Below are positions 5,908 to 39,856 of a DNA stretch of 64,000 nt, piece after piece. The DNA comes from Ctenosaura bakeri. Lineage: Eukaryota > Chordata > Lepidosauria > Squamata > Iguanidae. The notes below the pieces were generated by a model that searched no databases, was not told the DNA's origin, and saw nothing but the letters and a program-made list of their open reading frames with translations. The stretch spans positions 590,599-654,598 of the forward strand of contig CAOLHI010001302.1 of assembly GCA_948474755.1 (NCBI GenBank), written 5' to 3'. The position numbers were made by a program, and so were the translations under genes. Position 1 is the first letter of the stretch, and the number at the start of each line of letters is the position of its first letter.

Positions 5908-6504
5908 CAAGTCGCTGGACGAAGAAAATATCATTGTAACTGCATTGTAACCTTTTTCAGCTTCTTGTCATGTGGTTATGGATTCACACAGCTTTTGTAT
6001 CCTGATAGTGTGACCAGGATTCTTGGGTCAGTGAGATCACCCACATATGTGCTTGATCCTTTCCCATCCTGACTTATTAAAACAGCCAATGGAAGGACTT
6101 CTTGTGTTAGTTCATCCTCTGCTCCAAAAACCAGGTATGGATTTTATTTTTTTAAAAAACGACTCTTGGGCCTTCTCTAGTTGAGCTGCTACTATGGACT
6201 CAAGAATCTTCTTCTAGGGGATAATTGACCTTGGCCTAACTCTAAGTCAATGCTTTTCCATTTGAAGGGCACTGCTAAAACACATAATGGCAACTCAACT
6301 GAAATTTTTTTTGGGGCGGAGGGGAGATAAAAGTAATGATATTAATTGATTTCAGAATGACTTCACATTGAAGGTTGGGATGAAAACAGCATCAGTCTTC
6401 TCAGTCAATGATCTACACTGAGAAATGGATAGGTGGTTATCCATCTTGCTCTCTGTGTGATACGACTAACCAAGTATATTTCAATATGAATGGCCATGAT
6501 ATTC

Positions 6505-7500
6505 TGGATGTTGTTGTGTTTTTTTTTCCTTTATTTTTCTTATTAAGTAAAAAAAGAGAAAAAAACAACACAAACTAAACATAGAAAAGAACAACAACAA
6601 AAATGCAGCCATACAAACATCAACAAACATCCTAACCTACACATATCTAAAACAATGCAAACAAAACACAACTAATTGGTTCCTGCCATTGTTGCAAACC
6701 ATTCATATTGTTTAAGCATTTACACATAATTATTGAATCTTTTCTTTAGCTCATTTTATTAATTTTTGCTAATCACTTATCAATTTAGTTATTTACTCAC
6801 TTAATTTATCAAATTCGTCATTAACTTATTCTAGATTACTTTATACTAATGATCAATCATCAAGAGATAAGAGTCATCTATATTAAAATAACATTTTAAA
6901 ACAACAGAGTTCATCTTCTAAATCTACTTTTACACTTCTCTTACAGTAACATAAATTTTAAGTTAAAAACCTATTGCTATCACATTACCTTCATTCATTT
7001 TTTTTTAAAAAAAGATCAACCACTTCCATTCAGACAAGAATTTATTTTGTGTTCTGACTTTTATCCTATGTGTAAGATTGTACATTTCCACCGTTCCCAT
7101 CAGTCCAACAATTGGTAACTCTGTTCCCCCCACCCAATATTTTACATGCACAAATCTTGCTGCTAACAATATTATGTTATACCAATTGGTATTCTGGATG
7201 TTTTGCTGGATGAGTGGTTGGAGGAGGGACCGTCTTGTAATATCTTCGCTTCTTTCTGGTTGGCAGTTCCCATATAAACTAGTGCTGGCAGATTCATGCC
7301 TCACACTTTGGCCTTTGCATCCTATAAAATATAATTCTATTTCTTCTGGGTTCAAATATCTGTATGTGCCACAGAGAGAGATCACCTAGAGATGTGAAGT
7401 CTACAAAATGTAGACAACACATAGGACTACATTTCTTTGCCCTCTCCATCTGGAGAGGCTGTGGAAATTCTGAACCAAGGTTTTGAGTCAATGATGGATT
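6505..7500 (-). mobile_element. L1 LINE 3' fragment (ORF2 C-terminus and tail)
   Basis: Read on the minus strand, 7385-7005 encodes a frame whose middle (NTNWYNIILLAARFVHVKYW) matches the region near the C-terminus of lizard L1 ORF2. It is followed by an AT-rich 3' region. The poly-T/TTTATTTTTCTTATTAAG block at about 6517-6545 would be the A-rich tail of a minus-strand insertion. The frame is interrupted, so the copy is dead. The 5' edge near 7500 is uncertain, because 7385-7500 may belong to a different repeat. Confidence 0.65.
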
Positions 7501-37749: not shown

Positions 37750-38711
37750 AAAGTCTTACTTTTCTCCACAATATCTCACTCCATGAGTCCAGATAGGTGT
37801 TATGGATAATGGTTCATTCAGACATTCCTAGGAAAATATAAGCCAAAAATACTAATTAAAATGTCAGTAATAGGAAAGTTGTGATCTTTTAGATAACTCT
37901 GGACTGTACTTTCATCATACCTAACCAGCATAGCCATAGCATATGTAAGGAATTATTTCAGATTATCACTTTAAAAAAAAAAAATGAGCCCAAATTTCTC
38001 AGAAGATATTTTTTTCCCTCTTCCAAAACAGTTTGAAACATCTCCTTTTCTCATTCTTCCTAGAAAAAGAAAGCTTATTTACAGAATATTCTCCATGAAA
38101 TTTGCACCATTTTGTGTGTGTTGTTCCATCTAACCCAGGCCTGCACAACATACAGCCTGGGGGTCACATGCGGCCTGCCAAAGGATGTTGTGCAGCCCTA
38201 TCTCTACCTTTCCTGTGCCTGTTCATTTGCTGAGCTCCATTGATAAGGGAGGCCACTCTGCACTCGGCTCCTTGGCCCTGCCTCTTGGCTCCGGATTAGC
38301 AAAACTGGCAATGTGGCACAACAGTCCCTGGGCGAGGCCCAGCCCCTTCCACACACACACGCAAATGCACTCACACACATGATACCCTTCAAGCAGGAGA
38401 TGGAGATGGGGTGAAGCACACACATATATACACACACACTATTCCTCTCCCAGCACTGAAAGAGAGAGAACAGAACAGCTTGCGAGGAAAAAAAAGATCC
38501 AGAGAATGTGAAGCAAAGGAAGAGGCACCGTAGGGGAAGTGGGCATGTGTGTGGGGAACCAGCCTATTTGCTTGCTAAAGAGAGAGCCACCAGAGTGGGT
38601 GAGAGGAGAAAGGGAGGAGGAGAGTGAGTTGCCTTTGGTTGACAGTCTGCAGGGCAACCTGTCCATGTCCCCGTCCTTTTTGTCAGCTCCTGACTGGGCG
38701 GTGGCCAGGCC

Positions 38712-39348
38712 ATGGCACTGGTGTGGGCCAGCGTGATGTACAACTTCAAGTCGGAAAAGCCAGGTGAGATTTCCCTGTGGGAACACAAGTTGCTGAGCCT
38801 CTGCAGTGACCAGGAGATGGAGGGCTGGTTCGAGGGCATCAATAGTCGAGGTGACCACAGCTTCTTCTTGAACCACTTCTCCACTTTCATGAAATTGGGC
38901 AGCAAGGCCTTTGTGTTGGGTGAGGCATTAAGTTTCGTGAAGGATGGGGACAAGCTGTGTGCATGGTGCTGGGCACCTATGGGCTCCAGTTGTAGGAGAA
39001 TCTATACCCTTTCCAGTGCTCCATCGAGGACCCCACCAAGCAGACTAAATTCAAGGGCATGAAGAGCTTCACCGCCTACAAGATGATGCCCAGCCACACT
39101 GGACAGCAGCTGCACAGGTGCTGCAAGCACTTTGACTGGCTTTATGGGCACCTGATGGGAAAGTTTCCTGTCATCTCAGTGCCCCATTTGCAGGCCACTG
39201 GACACTTTGATGAGGATTTCATTTCCAAGCACGACAAAGACCTGCCTGGTGAATGGGCCATATGTGTAGTCATCTAGTGTTGGCCCAGGATGATACCTTC
39301 CAGCATTTCCTCACCTGCTCCAGCACTGATGAGAAAGCATGGAAGCAT
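38712..39348 (+). pseudogene. SNX18: SNX18 pseudogene fragment (SH3 plus partial PX)
   Basis: SNX18 is a sorting nexin that couples membrane remodelling and dynamin binding (N-terminal SH3) to phosphoinositide binding (PX) and curvature (BAR). From the ATG at 38712 the frame gives an SH3 domain with [19 protein letters not shown] and [11 protein letters not shown]. It then jumps straight to [19 protein letters not shown], which in SNX18 lies at the end of a long proline/acidic linker. Roughly 150-200 residues are therefore missing. A frameshift follows near 38961 and a TAG at 38993-38995 replaces the Gln codon before ENxYPFQC. The PX part resumes with [13 protein letters not shown] and KHFDWLY (the RRY of the lipid-binding motif is now RCC), lacks PEK in HLPEKQATG, and frameshifts again after FISKH. 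Similarity ends at DEKAWK, so the rest of PX and all of BAR are absent. GEISL and LSLCS favour SNX18 over SNX33 and SNX9. It is not functional as a sorting nexin. Confidence 0.85.
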
Positions 39349-39436
39349 ATTATAAAAACATATTTTTATAATATGGTTTGTTTGCAAAATAGTTTAATCA
39401 TTAATTATACTATAATAATTCTAATATAATTAAACT

Positions 39437-39688
39437 ATATTTATTTATTTATTTATTTATTTATTTATTTGTATCCCGCCTCTCCATATAGATTGAGGCG
39501 GCGAACAATTTAGCATGTATTTCAAAACATTTTTCTATACATGCCCCCAACAAGCTGGGTACTCATTTTACCGACCTGCGAAAGGATGGAAGGCTGAGTC
39601 AACCTTGGGGCTCGGCAGGATCAAACTCACAACCTTGTGGTTTGTGGCTTGCAGTACTGGCATTTAACCACTGCGCCACCAGGGTTCC
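39437..39688 (-). mobile_element. tRNA-headed SINE, young-looking copy 2, inside the hAT element
   Basis: Minus-strand copy of the SINE at 35.8 kb. On the plus strand it begins with (ATTT)n at 39438-39470 (tail), then GTATCCCGCCTCTCCATATA, and ends with the inverse of the head (CTGCGCCACCAGGGTTCC). A 25-bp segment next to the head (CCACCAGGGTT...AAATAAAAA) is tandemly duplicated. Sequence flanking it is repeated: 39380-39420 and 39713-39749 both run from GTTTGCAAA to AATTATAC. Confidence 0.9.
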
Positions 39689-39856
39689 AAATAAAAATAA
39701 AAACCCACCAGGGTTTGCAAATAAAAAATTAATTATACCATTATTATAACTTTACTTGGAAAGTGAAACACTAAAAATTATCTGCGGCCTGAAGAAGTTT
39801 AGCCTATTTAATTTCAGCCCTTACCTATTGCCAAGTTGTGCAGGTCTGATCTAACC

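Follow-up and report, generated by a model that had tools for sequence, protein, structure and literature searches.

The window analysed here, a 64,000-nucleotide stretch of the genome of the squamate Ctenosaura bakeri, contains a non-autonomous hAT element with a piece of the host gene SNX18 between its ends, and the same chimera occurs in many copies elsewhere in the genome. The element is in all likelihood a vertebrate Pack-hAT, formed when a hAT transposon took up host SNX18 DNA (transduplication) and was subsequently amplified, probably in trans. The features of the window copy are listed in Table 1.

Table 1. Layout of the SNX18-bearing hAT element in the window (positions are those of the window; L057 is the host SNX18 locus; other L numbers are loci of the same genome)
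Feature	Position	Strand	Basis or remark
Left target-site duplication ATCTAACC	38128..38135	.	Same 8-mer as 39849-39856
Whole non-autonomous hAT element, window copy	38136..39848	+	1713 bp, counting a later insertion and one deletion; ends and duplication; 39 other copies compared
Left terminal inverted repeat CAGGCCTGCACAAC	38136..38149	+	
hAT left arm, about 68 bp, common to relatives without SNX18	38136..38203	+	Consensus matches to L069, L076 and L077
Captured SNX18 upstream region/5' UTR	38204..38711	+	Consensus 89-868 against host L057 5525-6238, 73.6%; mapped onto the window
Captured SNX18 coding start: ATG and SH3 region	38712..38867	+	Host ATG at L057 6083; SH3 match
Junction of the 570-bp (190-codon) in-frame SNX18 linker deletion	38867..38868	+	Junction probe in 39/40 copies
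PX region of captured SNX18, ending at host L057 7296	38868..39347	+	Consensus 860-1356 against host, 91.8%; PX match
15-nt filler TATTATAAAAACATA	39348..39362	+	11/12 SNX18-free relatives match only from the filler end onward
hAT right arm, here split by the SINE-like insertion (consensus length 225 bp)	39363..39848	+	92.7-96.0% common to 12 SNX18-free relatives
SINE-like element inserted later into the right arm, with a tRNA-like head and a AAATAAAT tail	39439..39713	-	Limits approximate, by eye
Right terminal inverted repeat, CAGACCTGCACAAC on the - strand	39835..39848	-	
Right target-site duplication ATCTAACC	39849..39856	.	

The original prediction described CAG-type ends, inverse-complementary at 13 of 14 positions and flanked by an exact 8-bp duplication, and re-examination gave the same figures (93% complementarity between the two terminal inverted repeats). 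The ends of the consensus are short, inverted and begin with CAG, as in the hAT superfamily. Two open reading frames on the sense strand between the ends matched an SH3 structure (E = 3.5e-5) and the PX structures of SNX33 and SNX9 (best E = 4.2e-17), respectively. The window copy is frameshifted in the captured PX region, and it lacks approximately 116 bp near 38418 (consensus 285-400) that are present in the consensus of 22 copies. Its right arm is interrupted by the SINE-like insertion, which is presumably a Sauria SINE; in copies matching both sides, position 1306 of the window element used as query joins position 1587 almost directly. The tail repeat of the insertion lies at 39438-39470, and at its head end the unit CCACCAGGGTT is present twice (39676 and 39705). 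An Rfam scan at the gathering threshold and a tRNA scan of the window gave no matches. The right arm also contains an A+T-rich palindrome of 83 bp, perfect save for its central base (consensus 1390-1472; in the window at about 39380-39438, continuing after 39713). The idea that this palindrome was born at capture was dropped, as the SNX18-free relatives carry it too.

A DNA search of the 1.90-Gb genome (8006 contigs) with the window element returned 3871 first-look candidates, a count that the SINE-like insertion carried by the query has probably raised, and 40 of these were scored. The chimera was found at no fewer than 40 scored places, 39 of them outside the window, and two further copies (L080 and L081) from the right-arm search described below bring the number to at least 42, as expected from the earlier suggestion that copies might exist elsewhere in the genome. 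Both ends were located by alignment in 29 of the 40 copies, one or both being absent in the other 11. The 8-bp duplications flanking these 29 copies were exact in 15, had one mismatch in five, two or three mismatches in six, and five or more in three. Among the 26 copies with at most three mismatches, no two flanking 8-mers were alike; position 4 was T in 22 of them and position 5 was A in 25, which gives the consensus nnnTAnnn with a central TA. In the available part of its description, this duplication is the signature of Buster-type hATs (PMC3517528), and in its target choice the element thus resembles the Buster group. When left and right flanks from different copies were paired as a control, at most one mismatch was seen in 11 of 812 pairings versus 20 of the 29 true pairs, and the element ends are therefore not a chance pairing.

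A search of the genome for multiple copies with the same ends and the same SNX18 piece within different 8-bp duplications had been proposed beforehand, and precisely such copies were obtained; the chimera thus moved after SNX18 had been captured. Spread by segmental or tandem duplication instead of transposition is extremely improbable, given that no point in its support was found, that the flanking 8-mers are distinct in 26 of the 29 copies (the other three having no recognisable duplication), that the scored copies sit on different contigs, and that SNX18-free relatives have exact duplications as well. In a tree of 22 copies, the copy closest to that of the window was L009 on contig C5134, with 85% identity over query positions 290-1306.

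When the BAR family of SNX9/18/33 was used as query, the donor was located in the same genome, at positions 731500-741400 of contig C1014 (L057, 9.9 kb). This locus has an ATG at 6083 followed by 570 open codons, a frame that may extend past the exon end, and a protein search named the gene SNX18, with the best seven of the 120 matches listed coming from snakes or lizards at 86-89% identity. For a paralogue on contig C737, identity to the element was no more than 72% over 361 bp. For comparison with the donor, a majority consensus of 1596 bp was built from 22 of the 29 copies (1490-1720 bp long), seven being omitted for length, and the individual copies diverge from this consensus by 8.6-13.1%. 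The first block of donor similarity in the consensus aligns with gaps, and the second (consensus 860-1356) matches L057 6800-7296 over 497 bp; the identity of this block to the host exon, together with the structure matches, bears out the predicted sense-strand SNX18 SH3 and PX piece between the ends.

Alignment to the host locus, which had been suggested as a way to define the captured limits, set these at approximately L057 5507-7296 minus 6239-6808. Read base by base, the left junction puts the start near L057 5507-5525, which is about 560-575 bp upstream of the ATG; the claim that the fragment begins at its ATG was thus wrong. From there, the captured stretch runs through the SH3 region to 6238, resumes after the skipped linker (6239-6808; 570 bp or 190 codons, in frame, its first bases not GT) and stops at 7296 within the PX-coding part. 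Host gene DNA from a known donor therefore lies between intact transposon ends, a feature of Pack-TYPE elements, and the host SNX18 gene itself stayed intact. It is improbable that the hAT element took up an SNX18 retrocopy or a duplicated gene piece and not the gene DNA itself. The lack of introns is uninformative on this point because the captured coding part falls in one open stretch of the gene, which leaves room for such a source; however, the inclusion of about 560 bp upstream of the ATG makes an RNA source unlikely unless the transcript begins that far upstream, and no poly(A) follows the SNX18 end.

Relatives without SNX18, which reveal the state of the element prior to capture, were found through a genome search with the right arm, in which 40 of 398 first-look candidates were scored. 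The number of candidates suggests that the whole family sharing these ends comprises some hundreds of copies at most. Of the 40 places, 27 match from query base 1 or 3, that is, from the SNX18 junction, and 13 match from base 13 or later; all 13 late-starting places and one of the 27 were compared. SNX18 is present in two of these 14 loci, at full length in L080 and without consensus 511-1170 in L081, and absent in the other 12, so that, as in Pack-TYPE families, elements with the same ends carry other cargo or none. The SNX18-free relatives have the final 225-234 bp of the consensus in common, and nine of these 12 can be aligned at the left end as well (26-69 bp, 75-92%); for the left arm, consensus 1-68 matches L069 and L077 at 82% and consensus 1-62 matches L076 at 87%. 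Exact 8-bp duplications flank L069, L071, L075 and L078, the last with three mismatches in its left end. As L069, L071 and L075 possess both ends and exact duplications without SNX18, the possibility raised with the original prediction that the ends are parts of two unrelated elements is excluded.

On the basis of mutual similarity across more than 150 bp, the interiors of the 12 relatives fall into type A (L070, L071, L073, L075 and L079), type B (L068, L072 and L074) and types C-F (L069, L076, L077 and L078), and some of them contain other repeats, as judged by eye. In L070, L073 and L075 of type A, a AAGATGGCAGCAG-like stretch precedes a short open frame, an arrangement similar to the beginning of a host gene; a PDB search with the possible first-exon peptide of L073 gave no match up to E 1. 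L072 carries the left arm of the family inside and inverted (oriented positions 2041-2113), which marks it as a rearranged or nested element. The family may be a serial capturer, with the A-F interiors being, wholly or partly, putative 5' regions of further host genes, though this reading is rather less likely than not.

The right junction bears on how SNX18 was captured. There, SNX18 ends in ...GGAAGCA and is followed by the 15-nt filler and then by the hAT arm, which begins TTTTTATAATATGG; of the 12 SNX18-free relatives, only L079 matches from 8 nt before the filler end. The last CA of SNX18 and the filler together contain CATATTATAAAAA; its reverse complement, TTTTTATAATATG, makes up the opening 13 nt of the arm. 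Filler that is inverted and copied from a local template is characteristic of repair synthesis with template switching. We therefore favour, as somewhat the more probable route, capture during faulty repair of the gap left by an excised hAT copy, as read from this one short, A+T-rich junction. In an alternative route, two hAT copies would have flanked SNX18, lost their inner ends and moved the piece as a unit by their outer ends. This route is possible but rather unlikely. In its favour, the relatives L068, L069, L072, L074, L077 and L078 retain a longer common right arm than the SNX18 type, and such varying lengths of the same arm are what variable inner loss predicts, whereas the inverted filler is more easily made by template switching. 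Furthermore, no hAT end was recognisable in the 9.9-kb donor stretch, where matches were of 10-18 nt only, although excision could have erased one. Tandem insertion has been proposed for maize hATs among others in the available text of PMC8903248, and a 2026 review, as far as its available text goes, leaves space for a further, undiscovered mechanism of capture (PMC13317346).

Under the repair route, events would have started from a short non-autonomous hAT element with Buster-type target choice, which most likely acquired, via template-switch repair, a DNA copy of host SNX18 that begins some 560 bp upstream of the ATG and extends into the PX-coding part. The 570-bp linker would have been lost at capture or soon after, and the founder would then have been mobilised in trans by a hAT transposase in one main burst.

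The copies descend from one founder. In the 40 copies, junction probes detected the left junction in 37 (missing in L013, L023 and L038), the deletion junction in all but L023, and the right junction in 38 (missing in L040 and L042). The tree of 22 aligned copies is star-like, with terminal branches summing to 2.38 and internal branches to 0.22 substitutions per site, and there was thus one main burst of amplification. Outside CpG sites, upstream of the coding part, divergence was 0.157 between consensus and host and 0.104 on average (0.067-0.168) between copies and consensus, suggesting that, provided the rates are equal, not much time passed between capture and the burst.

A search for the hAT dimerisation domain gave 75 matches among 150 scored of 234 candidates. 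No transposase with the ends of the SNX18 element was found in the ten hAT transposase loci examined (L058-L067) of these at least 75 matches, all ten belonging to one other family. As partners, these loci were rejected for their unrelated right ends, the ends of the SNX18 element not being shared. They form a second hAT family, unrelated to that of the SNX18 element, in which most of the transposases are decayed; their mutual similarity is mostly 81-93% and ends about 650-700 bp past the dimerisation domain.

As far as these data go, the cargo has probably not been kept as a protein. The copies examined, that of the window included, are decayed: in none of the 22 aligned copies do all 214 SNX18 codons form an open frame, and the longest open frame from the start position is 131 codons (116 in the window copy). 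Among private changes outside CpG-like sites, 220 were nonsynonymous and 81 synonymous, a ratio of 2.7 versus the 2.6 expected without constraint; the CpG-like private changes set aside were three silent and 31 amino-acid changes. In shared variants, amino-acid changes were fewer than expected, with nonsynonymous and synonymous counts of 72 and 43 for variants common to two copies and of 42 and 28 for those common to three or more, and third positions were in excess (48/115 and 31/70, respectively). This lean towards silent sites may stem from early constraint on the cargo or may stem from hidden CpG decay at third positions. In the 644 bp compared between consensus and host, 35 differences are silent and 17 change an amino acid (16 and 12 of them, respectively, being CpG transitions), and the silent excess here would mainly reflect constraint on the host gene.

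Maintenance of the chimera as a useful or interfering SH3-PX protein, that is, as a domesticated or dominant-negative SNX18, is accordingly judged very unlikely. It would fit the in-frame linker deletion, the silent lean of the shared variants and the frame of the consensus, which is open from the ATG to the SNX18 end apart from a single TGA in place of the host CGA (a CpG change). An in-frame deletion, however, has a one-in-three chance of arising, and no copy is open over the cargo. Moreover, the consensus protein differs from that of the host at 17 residues, one difference being a stop, and 16 of these residues are conserved in 15 sauropsid SNX18 proteins, which we chose from 120 listed: 15 are invariant and residue 46 has a single exception, residue 88 being variable. 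A search for chimera proteins (94 matches of 190 candidates) gave none from a squamate among the named ones.

In plants, shuffled gene pieces are known to arise through their capture and spread by cut-and-paste transposons, whereas few such cases have been documented in vertebrates. In bats, Helitrons have likewise spread host gene DNA as DNA transposons of a vertebrate; however, these are rolling-circle elements with neither inverted repeats nor target duplications. Pack-hATs have been described in maize, and in the available text of that account (PMC8903248) plant Pack-hAT or Pack-TYPE elements resemble the present one in having non-autonomous hAT ends round captured gene DNA that was amplified, and their families in having conserved ends with differing interiors. 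Unlike the plant Pack-hATs as described there, the present case comes from a squamate vertebrate, takes in some 560 bp upstream of the ATG and has one cargo in at least 42 copies. The fungal hAT transduplication of histone H3 (PMC6710886) is similar in that a copy of a host gene lies inside a hAT element and was amplified; according to the part of that report available, however, a transcript was captured there without its promoter, whereas the SNX18 element carries upstream DNA as well, and its coding part is without the linker and breaks off within PX. Turmoil-1 of C. elegans also holds host coding pieces within an animal DNA transposon, but its accessible description (PMC2572040) assigns it to the Harbinger superfamily, with the pieces in the terminal repeats, and to an invertebrate. 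Mar of Drosophila, a MITE of the Buster family of hATs, is likewise non-autonomous with an 8-bp duplication centred on TA, although the available part of its description (PMC3517528) includes no captured gene. No vertebrate hAT with an amplified host gene piece was among the literature matches listed; subscription journals and Repbase were outside the scope of this search, and a repeat-library entry for the SNX18 element may therefore exist already.

With the donor, the founder junctions and many descendants present in one genome, the mechanism and timing of capture become directly testable, as does the fate of the dozens of scattered copies of the SNX18 upstream region in that genome. If the family is a serial capturer, one vertebrate Pack-hAT family would on repeated occasions have copied promoters and first exons of host genes and scattered them.
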